DNA from: Mesorhizobium sp. B2-1-1
GTDB taxonomy: Bacteria > Pseudomonadota > Alphaproteobacteria > Rhizobiales > Rhizobiaceae
Assembly (NCBI RefSeq): GCF_006442975.2
Contig: NZ_CP083954.1
Span: 2,611,501 to 2,675,500, forward strand
Length of the DNA: 64,000 nt
Reading direction: 5' to 3'
Positions 35,391 through 41,560 of the stretch are shown in pieces (within the stretch, counting starts at the first letter, position 1; every line of letters starts with the position of its first letter). The notes under the pieces are model-generated. The model worked only from the letters and a program-made list of their open reading frames with translations, was not told the DNA's origin and made no database searches. The position numbers and the translations under genes are program-made.

Positions 35391-36161
35391 ATGAAAATCG
35401 CCTCCTTCAACATCAATAACGTCAACAGCCGACTGAAGAATCTGCTGACCTGGCTGGCGGCGGCAAGACCCGATGTCGTCTGCCTGCAGGAGTTGAAGGC
35501 GCGCGATATGCAGTTTCCGCGCACTGCCCTGGCCGATGCCGGCTACGGCGCGGTGTGGAAGGGGGAGCCGACCTGGAACGGCGTCGCCATACTGGCGCGG
35601 GGCGCCGAGCCGGTGCTGACGCGCGATGTGCTGCCCGGCGACGATGCCGACAGGCAGAGCCGCTACATCGAGGCGGCGGTGAACGGAATCGTCATCGGCT
35701 GCCTGTACGCGCCGAACGGCAACCCGCAGCCGGGGCCGAAATTTCAGTACAAACTCGCCTGGCACGCACGGTTGGCGGCGCATGCCGAACAGTTGCTCGA
35801 CACCGGTCTGCCGGTGGTGCTGGCGGGCGACTACAACATCGTGCCCGAGCCGCGCGATATCTATGCCACGCGCTCCTACGACGATAACGCGCTGGTACAG
35901 CCGGAAAGCCGGGCAGCCTTTGCGGCGCTCATCGAGCAAGGCTGGACGGACGCACTGCGCAAGGTGTACCCCAAAGAGACGCTCTACACCTTCTGGGATT
36001 ACCGGCGGAACCGCTGGCCGCGCGATGCGGGCTTGCGGCTCGACCATATCCTCCTGTCGAAGAAGCTCGCCCGCAAGCTCAAGGCTGCCGGCATCGACCG
36101 CGACGTGCGCGGTGAGGACGGCGCCAGCGACCACGCGCCGGTGTGGGTGGAGTTGCGGTGA
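35391..36161 (+). CDS. xth: Exodeoxyribonuclease III / AP endonuclease
   Basis: A 256-aa EEP-fold nuclease. Catalytic motifs are seen: SFNINNVNSR (Asn near 9), CLQELK (metal-binding Glu), PVVLAGDYNIVPEP (Asp/Asn pair near 150) and SDHAPVWVEL (catalytic Asp-His near the end). It removes nucleotides from 3' ends or cuts at abasic sites. Many rhizobia carry more than one such gene. Its place next to ligD/ku suggests end processing during repair. Length is normal. Confidence 0.92.
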   Translation: MKIASFNINNVNSRLKNLLTWLAAARPDVVCLQELKARDMQFPRTALADAGYGAVWKGEPTWNGVAILARGAEPVLTRDVLPGDDADRQSRYIEAAVNGIVIGCLYAPNGNPQPGPKFQYKLAWHARLAAHAEQLLDTGLPVVLAGDYNIVPEPRDIYATRSYDDNALVQPESRAAFAALIEQGWTDALRKVYPKETLYTFWDYRRNRWPRDAGLRLDHILLSKKLARKLKAAGIDRDVRGEDGASDHAPVWVELR

Positions 36162-36294
36162 GGGGCGGCGTTTGGCGAAGCAGAATGCCCGCTCTCTTTT
36201 TCTCCGCCCTTCGGCGACAGCGACCATACAGTATACGGCGCAGAGTAAAATACGGCTCCCTAGCAGTAGACAGTCATTCTGATGGAATTGCCGT

Positions 36295-36314
36295 GCTTTT
36301 GCGTCCGCAAAAGC
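36295..36314. promoter_or_regulatory. Perfect hairpin/palindrome upstream of the four-gene operon
   Basis: GCTTTTGC (36295-36302), loop GTCC, GCAAAAGC (36307-36314). It lies between the exonuclease gene and the membrane operon starting at 36405, in a comparatively AT-rich stretch. It could be an operator for a dimeric repressor or an RNA hairpin in the leader. Confidence 0.45.
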
Positions 36315-36404
36315 TCCACTTTCGATTGGGCGAAACTCGTTGAAGAATCCGGAGCTTACCGCTAGCCTCGATCCGGGTGGTCGGAAGAGTGTACGTGGGG
36401 TGGA

Positions 36405-37826
36405 ATGTTCGGGTCACTGGAAAAGCTCAAGCAACGGCTGTTGCGGCCGCCGCATGCCTATAGGCCGACGACAGAGTCATTCCCCGACATTGACGTCCAG
36501 CGCATTGCACCGGATATGCGGCTTGCGGAGAAAGGCGAGAAGCGGGGCAGGGAGAATCTGCCTCAAAGCGATGACCTACCTTACGATGCCGTTGAAAACG
36601 ATATCATCGAATTGGTCGGAGCCGCCCAGAAACAATCCCACGATCATCTGGAGAACCAACTTGCGGGGTTCAGGCAGCGTCTCATCGACCTCGACTTTGA
36701 ATCGCGCTTTGCCAATATAAAAGCGGCATCCACGGCTGGTCTCTCCGACTTGAAAGCCGAATTGCAGATGGGAATCGATGATCTGCATGGGCTGCGTCGC
36801 GATCTGAAGGAGGCAGAGTCCTGGCATCGTGATTTCAAGGATCAGAACGGGCTTCGCCGGCCCTGCAAGAAGACCACCGCCATCGGTACGACGTTGAAAT
36901 GGCTCTTTGTGGTGGCGCTGGTGATGGCAGAGCTCGTCATCAATGGCGAACTGCTTGCAAAGCGAAACGAGCTCGGGCTGGTCGGCGGCATCGTCGAGGC
37001 GCTGATCTTCGCGATTCTCAATGTCGGCGTCGCGCTGATGTTCGCCCTCTATGGCGTGCGCGAGATCGCGCATCGCTCGATTTTCCGTAAGTTTGTCGGC
37101 ATTCTCGCCATCGCGGCCTATATCGGCGCAGCGATTGCCATCAATCTTGGTCTGGCGCATTACCGCGAGGTTGCCGGAACGATCGCGACCAATGGCGACG
37201 AGGTGATGCGACGCTTGCTAAGCGCGCCATTCGCGCTGAACGAATTTCGCTCCTGGATACTCTTCTTCCTCGGTGTGATGTTTTCACTCTTTGCCCTGAT
37301 CGATGGGCTCAGCATGCGTGACACTTATCCAGGCTACGCCACGGTTGATCACCGGCTTGACGAGGCGCGGGCAAATTATCGAAACAAGCGGCAAGGCCTG
37401 ATCGGCGAGCTTTCCGATGTTCGCAGTGGTTATGAGGACGAACTCGCCGATGCGCGCGCCGACCTCAGCAAGCAGCGGACAGAACACGATGCGATCGTGG
37501 CCCATCGCTCTCGGTTGGTTGGGCTGTTCGACGCCCACCAAGCTCAGCTTGAACGTGCGGCAAACAGCCTGTTCCGAATCTACAGGGACGCCAATATCGC
37601 TGTACGCACGACACCCGCGCCGGAGCGCTTTTCGCGGCCATACCAACTCGGCCGCATCGGCGTCCAGTATTTCCGCGACGGGGAATGGAACAGCGACGAA
37701 TTGCAAGCTTCCATCAAGGATGCGCAAGGCGACCTCGACAAGATGCTGGTCGCCTTGGGTGAACAGTTCGAGGCTGCGTTGAAGCAGTATCGCGAACTGG
37801 ATGTGCTGGTGCCTGAAGCCCAATGA
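36405..37826 (+). CDS. Four-TM coiled-coil membrane protein, first gene of a motor-like operon
   Basis: A 473-aa protein of a family I do not recognise. Residues 1-155 are charged and helical (coiled-coil-prone from about 65). Four membrane segments follow (about 164-185, 192-218, 229-250, 282-303). Residues 315-395 form a strong coiled coil rich in Arg, Asp and Glu, and the C-terminus (400-473) is soluble. The stop overlaps the ATG of the next gene (ATGA), so all four genes are likely made together. Codon choice seems less GC-rich than in neighbours, which hints at transfer; this was judged by eye only. It could be a sensor or scaffold for the MotA/MotB-like pair encoded downstream. Confidence 0.75.
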   Translation: MFGSLEKLKQRLLRPPHAYRPTTESFPDIDVQRIAPDMRLAEKGEKRGRENLPQSDDLPYDAVENDIIELVGAAQKQSHDHLENQLAGFRQRLIDLDFESRFANIKAASTAGLSDLKAELQMGIDDLHGLRRDLKEAESWHRDFKDQNGLRRPCKKTTAIGTTLKWLFVVALVMAELVINGELLAKRNELGLVGGIVEALIFAILNVGVALMFALYGVREIAHRSIFRKFVGILAIAAYIGAAIAINLGLAHYREVAGTIATNGDEVMRRLLSAPFALNEFRSWILFFLGVMFSLFALIDGLSMRDTYPGYATVDHRLDEARANYRNKRQGLIGELSDVRSGYEDELADARADLSKQRTEHDAIVAHRSRLVGLFDAHQAQLERAANSLFRIYRDANIAVRTTPAPERFSRPYQLGRIGVQYFRDGEWNSDELQASIKDAQGDLDKMLVALGEQFEAALKQYRELDVLVPEAQ

Positions 37827-38644
37827 GCGGTCGACGGTCCCGGCGCTCGCCTTCCAACCTTGTCAACTGGGGCTGGATTATTCTATTCGCGCTCGGCCTC
37901 ATTGCCGCCGCGATAGGCTTTACCTACGTCTATGTCTCGGCGCGCTCGCAACTCGTCGAACTTGACGATCGGCTTTGCCCGGTCGTCGGAGCTGCGTCGC
38001 AAACCATCATCCTGATCGATACCACGGATGCAATCGCTGACGTCACCAAACTGAACATCCAGACCCTGCTGCGCGATACCGCCTCCGGCATCCAGCGCGG
38101 TGGCTTGCTCGAGATCAGGGCCCTTACATCAGCGGTACCCTATACGAAAGAACTCTTCTCGCTGTGCAACCCCGGCAATGGCGGCGACCTCAGTGCTTTC
38201 ACCGGCAATGCGGCGCTGGCGCGAGAGCGTTGGCAAGCGGGATTCGGCCAGCCGCTGCTGGTTGCGCTTGAAAAAGCGGTCGAGGCAAACAAGGCCGACA
38301 GCTCGCCGATCATGGCCGGCATTCAGTCGATAGCCGTCAGCCATCTGGTCGCCCAGAAAACGCGTGCGGTCCCCTCGCGGCTGATTGTCGTTTCGGACAT
38401 GTTCGAGAATACCGAATTCTTCTCTCACTACCGCGGCGCCACAGATTTCGATGCCTTCAAAAAGTCGCCCGCGGCAAACCGCTTCGCTACGGATCTCGCT
38501 GGCAGCGATGTGTCGATCTGGCTCATACGCCGGGCGAAGTCGCCCGTCGACAGCGTCGCGTTGATGGCATTCTGGCAGCAGTGGATTGATTACAATCACG
38601 GCGTTTTCAGCTCTGCCAAGTCGTTGCAAGGAGTTGAAGGGTGA
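37823..38644 (+). CDS. Membrane-anchored vWA-like protein
   Basis: A 273-aa protein with a basic N-terminus, one membrane helix (about 15-40) and a soluble domain of about 230 residues. The domain resembles a von Willebrand factor A fold. The first strand ends in ILIDTTDAI (residues 63-71), which replaces the usual MIDAS DxSxS with DTTD, and a later strand reads LIVVSDMFEN (Asp near 192). The final strand is DVSIWLI. The MIDAS is therefore partly conserved. Start and stop overlap both neighbours (ATGA and GTGA). Unrecognised family; the vWA reading is by eye and moderate. Confidence 0.65.
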   Translation: MSGRRSRRSPSNLVNWGWIILFALGLIAAAIGFTYVYVSARSQLVELDDRLCPVVGAASQTIILIDTTDAIADVTKLNIQTLLRDTASGIQRGGLLEIRALTSAVPYTKELFSLCNPGNGGDLSAFTGNAALARERWQAGFGQPLLVALEKAVEANKADSSPIMAGIQSIAVSHLVAQKTRAVPSRLIVVSDMFENTEFFSHYRGATDFDAFKKSPAANRFATDLAGSDVSIWLIRRAKSPVDSVALMAFWQQWIDYNHGVFSSAKSLQGVEG

Positions 38645-39672
38645 GGCGGCCGCGCGTGGCCAGCCGGCAGTTGGACGCTGCGGCGCCACTGGTCTTTATC
38701 GTTTTTACCGGCCTGGGCGCCGCCTACATAGTCGTGGCCAAATCGCTTTCCGTGTCGGCATTCGTCGTTACCTTCGTGCCGATCGCGCTGATGATGGGCT
38801 ACGCGGCGATGATCATGATCGCGCGCGGGCTCCGGCTGCGCGACGACCAAACCGGGGACAACTTCTACTATATGGGCTTCATCTTCACGCTCACCAGCCT
38901 CGCCGTTTCGCTTTACCAGTATGGAGGCGGTGGCGCAGTCGACGAGATCGTGCGCAATTTCGGCATCGCGGTTGCCTCCACCATCGCCGGCATTGCATTT
39001 CGCATCGTCTTCAATCAGCTCCGACGCGACCCCATGGAAGTGGAACGCGTGTCACGTCTCGAGCTCGCAGAAGCATCCCGCAAGGTGCGCCGGGAACTCG
39101 ATGGCATCCTGAGCGAGATGAACCATTTCCAACGCTCCAACCAGCAGATGCTGCAAGAGGGCTATCACGAGATACGAACGCAAGTGGAAACCTCGGCGAA
39201 ATCCCTGGTCCAGTCTCTGGACCTGCTCGCCAAGGAAGCTTCCGAGCACATCAGGGCATCCTCGCTGGCGATGCAGAGCGGAATAGACACCAAGGAGCTG
39301 CGGGGCGGCATCGACCAGACAGCCAAGGCAGTTCACGATATCAACGCCATCCTGACCAGCGCCAGCACGCAGATTGCGACCGCGACACAGATGATGGCCG
39401 ACAAGCTCGCTGGCATGTCGACACCCGACAAGGTCATCGAGGTTCGGCTGGAGCCGGTCGTGGCCGGTTTGCAGCGGGCGATCGAAACCGCCATGAGCGA
39501 TTTCTCTTCCCGTCTTGGCGATGTGGCGGAGCTTCGGCGCGGGCTGGAACAGTCCACGGCGGAAGCGCTTCGGGCCAGCGATGTGCTCGACAAACTTGCG
39601 GCGACATTTGAGGGTTATGATCGAGCGCCGACGCGGCAGGGTCTATTCAGACGGCTCTGGCGTGGCGGCTAA
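38641..39672 (+). CDS. MotA/TolQ-like membrane protein with long coiled-coil tail
   Basis: A 343-aa protein starting at GTG 38641. It has four membrane segments (about 15-34, 40-61, 77-92, 103-125). The third and fourth, GFIFTLTSLAVSLY and NFGIAVASTIAGIAF, have the small-residue pattern of MotA/TolQ/ExbB proton-channel helices. The rest (about 130-325) is a long helical tail rich in Gln, Ala and Glu, as in ZorA. It precedes an OmpA/MotB-like gene, the expected partner of such a channel. Similarity is weak and judged by eye. Confidence 0.65.
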   Translation: MRRPRVASRQLDAAAPLVFIVFTGLGAAYIVVAKSLSVSAFVVTFVPIALMMGYAAMIMIARGLRLRDDQTGDNFYYMGFIFTLTSLAVSLYQYGGGGAVDEIVRNFGIAVASTIAGIAFRIVFNQLRRDPMEVERVSRLELAEASRKVRRELDGILSEMNHFQRSNQQMLQEGYHEIRTQVETSAKSLVQSLDLLAKEASEHIRASSLAMQSGIDTKELRGGIDQTAKAVHDINAILTSASTQIATATQMMADKLAGMSTPDKVIEVRLEPVVAGLQRAIETAMSDFSSRLGDVAELRRGLEQSTAEALRASDVLDKLAATFEGYDRAPTRQGLFRRLWRGG

Positions 39673-39699
39673 AGCGCGTTGCATGGTCAGTGTGGGACG

Positions 39700-40668
39700 A
39701 TGTCGATGAAGATGCCTTCCTCGCTTATCGCCGAAGGGGAACGCGGCCATCGCCGAGGCGTGGTGCTTGGGCTCACAATGGCCGAGCTTCTCCTCCTTCT
39801 GCTTTTCTGCCTCCTTCTGGTCTCGGCCAGCATCGCACAGCGAAAAGATGAGAGGATCGCCGAGCTGCAGGCCTCCGCGAACCTGGACATCACGGTGGGC
39901 CAGCTTGCCGACATGCGTGCCGAACTGGCGCGCCTGCAGGCGCTGTTTCCAAAAGCGGCGCTTCCTTTGCCGCCAGCCAACTGGACCGAGCTCGTTGCGG
40001 CCAAAGCGGTGATCGACGGGCTTACGGAAAAGGGCATCGATGCCGCGCCGACGTCAGATCCGACGCTGCGGAAATTGCTGCTCGAAATCAGCGAAGCCAA
40101 AGCCGCCGACCCCCGTCTGCTGGACCGACTTGAAAAGACGCTCTCGGCCTCCAACGACAGGAGCGCGGACGCTGAATCGTCGATGCAGTGGCCGCCGATG
40201 ATAACGTTGAGCGACGACGGCTATACATTTGAACGTGGCAGCGCTGCTCTCACCGACGCGTTCCGGGCTCGTTTGCAGACCAAGGTCACGGACGACGTTC
40301 TGTCTTTGCTGACACGCTACAAAGTCGATGTCGTCGAGATCGTCGGTCACACGGATGAGCAGAAAATCAATCCGGCCAAGCCGTCCAACCTCGATGCGGT
40401 TGCGATCTCGGCGATGAACGGAGCCAGCGCTATCAGCGATTTGACCCCGGCCGACAATGCGGGGCTGGGGCTCTCGCGCGCTATCGCGGTAGCGAACGCG
40501 CTGATCCAGACGGGACGGCTGGGCAGTGTGAAGATCATTCCGTTGTCAGCGGCACAGCTCGTAATGCCGGGAGACATTATCGCCGATGGCAGCCACGTTG
40601 GCGATGTTCGGGAACGCCGGCGTATCGAGATTCGGGTACGACGGTCCTCGGACGGCGGCACCAATTAA
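39700..40668 (+). CDS. OmpA/MotB-like protein with one TM helix (ZorB-like)
   Basis: A 322-aa protein from ATG 39700 (other ATGs at 39706 and 39712 are possible). One membrane helix is at about 20-44 (GLTMAELLLLLLF), with a Glu at 29 where MotB/TolR/ZorB carry an acidic proton carrier. A helical linker follows. The C-terminal domain (from about 165) matches the OmpA peptidoglycan-binding fold: FERGSAALT, VEIVGHTDEQ (Asp near 219), LGLSRAIAVANAL (Arg near 260) and RRRIEIRV. It should anchor the complex to the cell wall. The gene lies 27 bp after the MotA-like gene. Confidence 0.8.
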   Translation: MSMKMPSSLIAEGERGHRRGVVLGLTMAELLLLLLFCLLLVSASIAQRKDERIAELQASANLDITVGQLADMRAELARLQALFPKAALPLPPANWTELVAAKAVIDGLTEKGIDAAPTSDPTLRKLLLEISEAKAADPRLLDRLEKTLSASNDRSADAESSMQWPPMITLSDDGYTFERGSAALTDAFRARLQTKVTDDVLSLLTRYKVDVVEIVGHTDEQKINPAKPSNLDAVAISAMNGASAISDLTPADNAGLGLSRAIAVANALIQTGRLGSVKIIPLSAAQLVMPGDIIADGSHVGDVRERRRIEIRVRRSSDGGTN

Positions 40669-40819
40669 CGCGGTGATCGCGCGATTCAGCCTGCTTGGCG
40701 GTATCGACAACGACGCCCTTGTTTTGACCGCAGCGCTTTTTCGCAATCGCGTGGCCTGGATCGCAAAGCCTTCGTCGCTTCGCTCCCGCTGCACCGAGGG
40801 ATCGACGAACGGCGCCCAA

Positions 40820-41560
40820 CTACCCCAGCCACCACCATAGCGCCGCGATCACCGCGATAACGGCCGCCACGCTTAGCGCCAGCATGATGTAGGAGCCCTT
40901 GATGATGTCGGCGATGATCTTCTTGATGGCCTCGCGGTCGTTGAGATTGGGGAAGGGCTCGTTCGGTTGCGCCACGTCGAGGAAGTGGCAGAGCGGGGCC
41001 CAGCCTTCGCTGACCTTGAACACCAGCAGCTTTTCCGGCGGCACCGCCGCCTTCACTTCCTCGACATATGCGTTGTAGCGCTCCACGGCCTTGGCGCGGT
41101 TGCCCATGACGCCGGCTAGCGTGCGGCCCCAGATCAGCCTGCGTGACATGTCGCCGAATTTCCGGCCGAACGGCGTCAGCCATTCCAGGATCTTGAACTG
41201 CCAGACATTCTCGGTGAAGTAGATCGTGTCGATGGTGCTCTCGTACCAGGCTTCCGCGCCGCGCGGGTGCAAGGTGAGCAGCACCTTGGCGTCGGGATAG
41301 GCGGCCATCAGTTCGCGCCACACGCAGCAGCCTGGATTGTCGACCGTCGCCTTGTAATTGCCGAATACCCGGCTCCAGTCCTGCTGCGTGCCGGGCGGGC
41401 TGTTGGCCACCTTGCGCCAGAAATCGAGATGGCCCTTGTTGGCCTTGTTCAGGATCACTTCCTGCATGTGGTAGCAGGGCAGGCCGAGCCTGTTCAGCGC
41501 GACGAAGGTCGACCATGTACCGGTGCGCCCGAAGCCGGCCCCGATCAGCGTGAGCGTCAT
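40820..41560 (-). CDS. Sulfotransferase-like protein with C-terminal membrane anchor
   Basis: A 246-aa protein starting MTLTLIGAG, with GGGGGAACAA before the ATG. The P-loop-like GAGFGRTGTWSTF (about 7-19) and the following layout match the sulfotransferase family of the NAD-dependent-epimerase-like or P-loop type (DUF-type, as in plant-fungal 'NAD dependent epimerase' misannotations). The last ~25 residues (YIMLALSVAAVIAVIAALWWWLG) form one membrane helix, so it is probably tail-anchored with the catalytic domain in the cytoplasm. It converges on the operon ending at 40668. Acceptor unknown. Confidence 0.75.
   Translation of the reverse strand: MTLTLIGAGFGRTGTWSTFVALNRLGLPCYHMQEVILNKANKGHLDFWRKVANSPPGTQQDWSRVFGNYKATVDNPGCCVWRELMAAYPDAKVLLTLHPRGAEAWYESTIDTIYFTENVWQFKILEWLTPFGRKFGDMSRRLIWGRTLAGVMGNRAKAVERYNAYVEEVKAAVPPEKLLVFKVSEGWAPLCHFLDVAQPNEPFPNLNDREAIKKIIADIIKGSYIMLALSVAAVIAVIAALWWWLG

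Follow-up and report, generated by a model that had tools for sequence, protein, structure and literature searches.

What would a bacterium do with an operon that encodes only membrane proteins and joins two subunits resembling those of an ion-driven motor with two unfamiliar partners? The question is raised by a four-gene operon, p1 to p4, at positions 36405-40668 of a 64,000-nucleotide stretch of Mesorhizobium sp. B2-1-1 (contig NZ_CP083954.1, positions 2,611,501 to 2,675,500), the whole of which is referred to below as the window. An earlier note, made from the letters alone, had described the locus as a ZorA/ZorB-like pair combined with a vWA-like protein and a coiled-coil membrane protein. 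Our answer is a tentative one, which we hold at a little under an even chance: p1-p4 may form a Zorya-like ion-driven motor that senses a breach of the envelope and acts on DNA in the periplasm.

Results

Open reading frame (ORF) calling placed the four genes on the forward strand, joined by ATGA and GTGA overlaps and, ahead of p4, separated by a short gap. The layout given in the earlier note was thus borne out, its 27-base gap after p3 applying with the ATG start of p4 at 39700; TTG 39679 is an alternative start. p1 (36405-37826, 473 aa) has four transmembrane (TM) segments, at about 160-185, 196-214, 230-248 and 285-303 by hydropathy, between long coiled-coil-like N- and C-terminal parts. 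p2 (37823-38644, 273 aa) has a single TM segment by hydropathy (residues 18-36), followed by a vWA-fold domain at about 55-273 (nt 37985-38641) that is predicted to be periplasmic. p3 (38641-39672, 343 aa) is a putative ZorA/TolQ/ExbB-like pore subunit with four TM helices, a core hairpin at 68-127 (nt 38842-39021) and a tail at 131-343 (nt 39031-39669), and p4 (39679-40668; 329 aa from the TTG, 322 aa from the ATG) is a putative MotB/ZorB-like stator subunit. Its single TM segment by hydropathy (28-46, nt 39760-39816) contains Glu36 in the TTG numbering, and its OmpA-like domain spans 183-279 (nt 40225-40515).

AlphaFold2 models were made for p2 and p3. The p3 model (mean predicted local distance difference test score 81.1, predicted template modelling score 0.46) has four membrane-length helices (14-35, 40-60, 68-95 and 100-127) and a helical tail (131-327); three segments of p3 lie above the hydropathy threshold. 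Hydropathy and AlphaFold2 agree with the earlier description of all products as membrane-spanning, with four, one, four and one TM segments in p1 to p4, a mostly helical tail of about 210 residues in p3 and an acidic residue in the TM segment of p4. From the charges flanking the TM segments, both termini of p1 would lie in the cytoplasm together with the p3 tail, and the main domains of p2 and p4 in the periplasm.

None of the four proteins passed the cut-offs of the curated family models (Pfam, NCBIfam and PADLOC), and no already named system was matched in these libraries, as the earlier note had supposed. p1 had no match above the cut-offs and no known domain; 109 of the 7996 candidates scored were homologues with E <= 1e-3. 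In the public annotation of two loci (L153 14245-15594; L156 1541-2992 and 3728-5335) p3 carries the label of a methyl-accepting chemotaxis protein and p1 that of a DMT family transporter, probably misannotations to which the coiled coil and TM segments gave rise.

To these data we added 54 further loci (numbered with an L), of which 13 were reached via p2 in the class, five via p3 and 13 via a p2 profile in the phylum, together with 10 of 24 plasmid records and 13 of the 24 further genomes of the genus in which p1 was matched. Forty loci, the window and 39 others, were complete and carried p1-p2-p3-p4 in identical order on one strand; clustering of p1 at 60% identity divided them into 24 lineages. 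The pairwise distances of the four proteins over these 40 loci correlated at 0.925-0.962, a level reached in none of 999 permutations, which bears out the co-occurrence that had been proposed. Among 385 genomes of the class p2 was found in 13 and p3 in 13, all ten p3 matches at E < 1e-40 adjoined p2, three genomes had p2 only and three had only a weaker p3-like match. Since the loci behind the p3 profile had themselves been reached via p2 or p3, the telling result is that no strong p3 occurred without p2. p1-p2-p3-p4 is therefore a real, conserved gene unit, beyond chance. Two incomplete loci (L024 and L035) were truncated by the contig end, and L277, a 4.5-kb contig chosen in addition to the 54 for its p3-like gene, gave a weak p4 match and neither p1 nor p2.

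The best clue to function, though absent beside the window copy, is an exported nuclease encoded beside the operon or fused to p4. Of the 40 complete loci, 29, representing 16 of 24 lineages, have a staphylococcal-nuclease (SNase) gene no more than 3.3 kb from the operon. In four of them (L030, L033, L036 and L274) p4 itself carries the SNase as a C-terminal fusion past the OmpA-like domain, and in eleven (L023, L025, L027, L031, L153, L154, L156, L211, L223, L271 and L272) a separate gene on the same strand lies within 212 bp or overlaps, those of L025 and L027 being downstream and overlapping the end of p4. Fused and close same-strand genes together cover 13 of the 24 lineages (fusion four, close nine). 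At the remaining 14 loci with SNase the gene is on the other strand or farther away, and in the largest lineage group it was found only at 0.8-3.2 kb, in 8 of 10 members. In addition, the p4 of L273, which resembles that of L274, carries a GmrSD_C (HNH-type) domain (E 2.3e-11) at the position of the SNase.

The SNase profile was itself derived from the linked and fused SNases. Pfam confirmed the domain in nine of ten proteins tested (the tenth being a p4 without SNase) and in L274; L036 was identified by the profile only, and the L023 match was marginal (22.7 bits, Pfam cut-off 21). Twenty-five control loci (342 kb) contained no SNase, and the background was 53 matches in 21 related genomes (about 113 Mb); the strength of the link is given here as locus and lineage counts, since binomial figures calculated from this summed density take no account of relatedness. 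Among the best 120 of 1253 homologues of the L030 p4 (E <= 1e-20), 25 carry PF00565 by precomputed annotation, a share biased by the SNase of the query itself, and for three the source gives the name 'endonuclease YncB/flagellar motor protein MotB'. All 25 separate SNases have a hydrophobic stretch ahead of the first catalytic motif, giving them export-like N-termini (by hydropathy, no signal-peptide program), and each of the five fused p4 proteins, the HNH-type one included, has one N-terminal TM segment by hydropathy. On both grounds the nuclease is predicted to be periplasmic.

The residues expected of an ion motor were conserved in p3 and p4. Glu36 of p4 was present in 40 of 40 loci, as were T83 and S86 of p3; S113 was found in 38, with Thr in the other two, and T114 in 39, with an X in one. 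These counts are partly non-independent, the genes having been found with profiles of the same regions. p3 and p4 thus combine the polar Ser/Thr residues and the acidic TM residue that are looked for in 5:2 ion-driven motors. The best PDB profile match of p3 was ZorA (8vvn), and 24 of the 50 best VIA rows for its AlphaFold2 model were ZorA, TolQ, ExbB or PomA chains. A search of 142 genomes of the class with the ZorA2 model was uninformative for p3, since many of the matches, found in 38 genomes, fell in the coiled-coil part. p4 matched the OmpA family PF00691 at E 3.1e-5 with 24.7 bits by hmmscan (gathering score 27.2), and with 27.5 bits together with its neighbours in the genome search. The p4 proteins of L273 and L274 pass this gathering score and match ZorB2 at about 1e-27, L273 reaching 81.9 bits against an NCBIfam cut-off of 400. 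In L031, L032 and L034 the TM glutamate of p4 is kept and another, unnamed domain apparently replaces OmpA. We infer that p3-p4 is an ion-driven inner-membrane motor of the ZorAB/TolQR/ExbBD kind, with 5:2 assembly and ion flow.

The modelled domain of p2 has a vWA (Rossmann-like) fold, so that the combination of the motor pair with a vWA-fold and a coiled-coil membrane protein stood up to analysis. The canonical vWA metal site is DxSxS. That of p2 is different and reads D-x-T/S-D, with D66, D69, S161, P162 and D192 present in 40 of 40 loci. Its TM segment (WIILFALGLIAAAIGFTYV) contains no His and no acidic residue, and has neither the SHLS/His motif nor the pore aspartate of two motor-coupled vWA families, as far as these are characterized in the relevant parts of PMC12204202.

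p1 and p2 also occur without the motor. Five loci (L037, L038, L039, L275 and L276) have p1-p2 and L040 has p2 alone, in each case without p3-p4; in L038 the gene adjoining the pair resembles a caspase-like peptidase by eye. A distant variant in other classes of the phylum (L264-L270) encodes in a row an OmpA lipoprotein with a glycine zipper (confirmed by family models in L266), a multi-TM protein and a p2-like vWA protein, and gave no p3 or p4 match. Its vWA protein aligned with p2 in hhalign (98.8%, E 4.5e-17), and the link between p1 and the multi-TM protein at the p1 position was not significant (probability 8.9%). No PADLOC model matched in the two L266 proteins scanned. Because both the motor-less pairs and this variant exist, p1-p2 would seem to be the core of a wider family and the motor one way in which this core is coupled. 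On the Sinorhizobium fredii plasmid pSfreNXT3b (L152 1-3304) a second three-gene unit was seen, about 8.7 kb upstream of the complete operon and its SNase. It encodes a multi-TM protein, a protein whose start is vWA-like and an OmpA-family member that matches ZorB3 at 1.3e-14, and it resembles the L264-L270 variant.

The operon block is likely a horizontal insert. When 12 chosen related loci were compared with the window by blastn, similarity ended at 36152-36173, just past the exonuclease III gene, and restarted at 40814-40824, at a sulfotransferase-like gene; the operon was absent from this slot in all 12. The probable inserted segment, judged by these alignments and by G+C content, is 36167-40819, with p1-p4 as the sole evident cargo. 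The lower G+C content noted earlier by eye was confirmed by counting (59.8% in the operon versus 64.2% in the remainder of the window). The slot measures 0.75 kb in L192 and is larger, with other ORFs, in the remaining related loci; its content (window 36161-40820) differs among Mesorhizobium genomes. All 99 genomes of the genus that were searched gave a match to the exonuclease III gene, with a best E < 1e-149 in 88. The adjacency to a DNA-repair island described in the earlier note is real in that exonuclease III lies directly upstream, and it is incidental: since the operon is the evident cargo of a variable slot and exonuclease III was matched in every genome searched, the upstream DNA-repair genes are not part of the operon unit.

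The closest p3 homologues, 96-97% identical, are named Mesorhizobium. p1 was matched in only 25 of 146 genomes of the genus, its own included, the best other copy being 44% identical and one match partial; this patchiness and divergence point strongly to horizontal transfer. Plasmid records matching p1 numbered 24, as did those matching p3, with equal genus counts (Rhizobium 12, Paracoccus 6, Sinorhizobium 3, Microvirga 2 and Tistrella 1), and 11 of the 24 records were typed as conjugative.

Known defence genes were found near some operons: Cas10 of a type III CRISPR system (L034 12939-15563), AbiEii beside the operon (L028 6168-6965), GajB of Gabija (L156 13038-14471) and SNIPE/PD-Lambda-1 1.2 kb away (L152 17983-19458). 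A RelA/SpoT-domain protein was seen near L205. Cas10, AbiEii and the RelA/SpoT protein were picked deliberately among loci without SNase and are no test of a defence link. Proteins flanking the operon at seven of the 10 annotated plasmid loci (all except L155, L224 and L225) were compared with those of six control stretches of such plasmids, some coding sequences being omitted in both sets. Strong PADLOC matches among the 68 flanking proteins were GajB, PD-Lambda-1 and PDC-M48B, with LmuA, PDC-S57, ZorB3 and RTasMBL among the weaker ones; the 68 control proteins gave SspA/DndA, SspB and mad3, and more weakly mad8, AriA and an ATPase model. The flanking genes of the annotated plasmid loci are often metabolic.

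Discussion

In the mechanism that we propose, p3 would form a pore ring with a cytoplasmic tail and p4 its peptidoglycan-anchored partner, whose TM glutamate would carry the ion. This motor would be joined with a dedicated pair, the four-TM coiled-coil p1 and the periplasmic vWA-fold p2, and, at the level of the family, with an output module, an exported DNA nuclease (SNase, once HNH-type) that is separate or fused to p4 at its periplasmic end. If a phage tail tip, a conjugation channel or a DNA-uptake channel breached the cell wall, p4, p2 or both would sense this, and ion flow via p3-p4 would lead to a rearrangement, relayed by p1 and p2, that places or unleashes the nuclease on DNA crossing the periplasm. 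For the window copy the nuclease may be supplied in trans, by the two SNases encoded elsewhere in the genome, or the action may go via p1-p2 alone. The gene unit, the vWA fold of p2, the motor-type residues, the nuclease association and the export-like N-termini were computed here; assembly, ion flow, sensing, nuclease control and defence are what we infer from them. The logic would be that of Zorya with the nuclease on the periplasmic side, which would suit a barrier that stops DNA in transit.

In Zorya a 5:2 motor is coupled with a nuclease, and such a partner is described for types I and II in the sections of PMC11890865 that treat them. The likeness lies in a MotA/TolQ-like subunit with a long tail, a MotB-like subunit with an acidic TM residue and an OmpA-like domain, and a nuclease partner. 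The differences are that the TM residue of p4 is Glu where Zorya has Asp, that p3 has an additional N-terminal TM segment and lacks the cytoplasmic insert preceding the core hairpin, and that p1 and p2 stand in place of ZorC/D/E/F/G, with a nuclease that is predicted to be periplasmic, unlike the Zorya effectors. Zorya models scored far under their cut-offs (p3 16.1 bits against ZorA2 and 13.4 bits against NF033914, cut-off 190; p4 12.5 bits against ZorB), and p1 and p2 had no PADLOC, Pfam or NCBIfam match to ZorC/ZorD, ZorE, ZorF or ZorG models up to E 1. Zorya type III, which likewise has two odd partners, was considered and rejected: according to the part of PMC8565338 that deals with this type, ZorF is DUF3348 and ZorG is DUF2894, and p1 and p2 match neither. 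With TolQR, ExbBD, MotAB and PomAB the operon shares the polar and acidic pore residues of p3-p4 and, by part of the comparisons, probably the fold of p3; it differs in that p3 matches neither Pfam MotA_ExbB nor, in hhalign, the TolQ/ExbB/MotA set and has a short TM2-TM3 loop, a long tail and partners of its own. The principle of a nuclease held in the envelope and directed at entering DNA is also that of SNIPE (PD-Lambda-1), which is membrane-bound and cuts phage DNA as it is injected, but, as outlined in PMC13190303, SNIPE is a single protein with a cytoplasmic GIY-YIG nuclease and no motor. PADLOC-DB of 2023 does not name the system, and no paper in the literature searched joined Zorya with a thermonuclease. 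We recognised no published description of the p1-p4 gene set in a search that lay outside bioRxiv as such, most subscription papers and supplementary tables, so an earlier listing as an unnamed candidate is possible.

Several results weigh against a periplasmic defence motor. The weakest point for the window copy is that no nuclease lies beside it. Eleven of the 40 complete loci lack an SNase, one of them being the HNH-type fusion of L273 and the other ten, the window included, having no recognised linked nuclease; a partial Pfam search of eight proteins from four such loci recognised no DNA nuclease except Cas10. (An ORF upstream in L032 resembles an endonuclease/exonuclease/phosphatase by eye; no Pfam model matched it.) Defence genes showed no clear excess in the flanks over the control stretches and the neighbours are mixed, so that of the proposed proximity to defence islands the occasional neighbours are suggestive and an enrichment did not emerge. 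The expected MotA/TolQ-type fold of p3 likewise stood only in part: against the ZorA profile match and the VIA rows, Foldseek found no PDB match at E <= 0.001 (ZorA 8vvi was third at E 0.52), a profile of the p3 TM region alone matched no PDB chain up to E 10, and none of p3, p1 and p2 gave a match when compared by hhalign with a TolQ/ExbB/MotA set.

Chief among the rivals is a force transducer of the Tol-Pal/Ton kind that would serve envelope upkeep or attachment to surfaces, in which the motor would pull or turn p2 bound to the wall or to an outer-membrane partner, the nucleases being add-ons for matrix DNA or nutrition. We consider it rather unlikely. In its favour, vWA proteins coupled to TolQ-type motors have been published as putative force transducers (PMC12204202, in the portion concerned with them); like p2, these are periplasmic vWA proteins that are anchored by a TM segment and encoded together with a motor of 5:2 type. 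The L264-L270 relatives, with a p2-like protein beside an OmpA lipoprotein and no motor match, and the frequent metabolic flanking genes also suit it. However, those transducers, as that portion presents them, differ from p2 in their SHLS/His or acidic pore residues, and from the operon in that it has a separate MotB-like p4 and a four-TM p1; moreover, a patchy, mobile distribution would be unusual for envelope upkeep, and fusions of p4 to nucleases of two folds are not predicted by force transduction.

It is less probable still that the nuclease is a passenger or a separate module, with p1-p2 as the working unit responding to envelope damage, p3-p4 as its power source and the window copy as the minimal form. 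The loci with p1-p2 or p2 alone, the distance of the SNase in the largest lineage group and its absence at the window copy would all be accounted for, whereas the fusion to p4 in four lineages and the close same-strand genes in nine more tell against a passenger. A DNA-uptake or scavenging machine, whose motor would help to pull DNA through the wall while a periplasmic nuclease trims it, seems very improbable. A periplasmic nuclease joined to a wall-anchored motor subunit would be in keeping with it, as would the ComEC-like gene annotated about 6 kb past the operon in L223; on the other hand, no further uptake genes were seen beside the operon at the 10 annotated plasmid loci, competence genes not having been searched systematically. 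The defence motor is the reading that we prefer.

Conclusions

The p1-p4 system may be an undescribed barrier to incoming DNA such as phage genomes. Extended beyond this operon, and with rather more doubt than the mechanism itself, the proposal is of a class of immune machine in which a wall-anchored, ion-driven 5:2 motor would sense envelope penetration and deploy a periplasmic nuclease, of SNase or HNH type and sometimes carried on the wall-anchored subunit, to destroy DNA on its way across the periplasm and ahead of its entry into the cytoplasm; a sensor-coupler core, which other bacteria would reuse in the absence of the motor, would be made up of the vWA protein together with its four-TM partner. 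That a motor of flagellar type can be put to immune use is known from Zorya, where the link from ion flow to the nuclease is unclear. Here two kinds of nuclease are fused to the wall-anchored motor subunit, on what is predicted to be its periplasmic side, which makes the coupling between ion flow and nuclease addressable within one protein. If the proposal is true, DNA-targeting immunity would gain a periplasmic line, borne on mobile elements of plant symbionts (Rhizobium, Sinorhizobium and Mesorhizobium).

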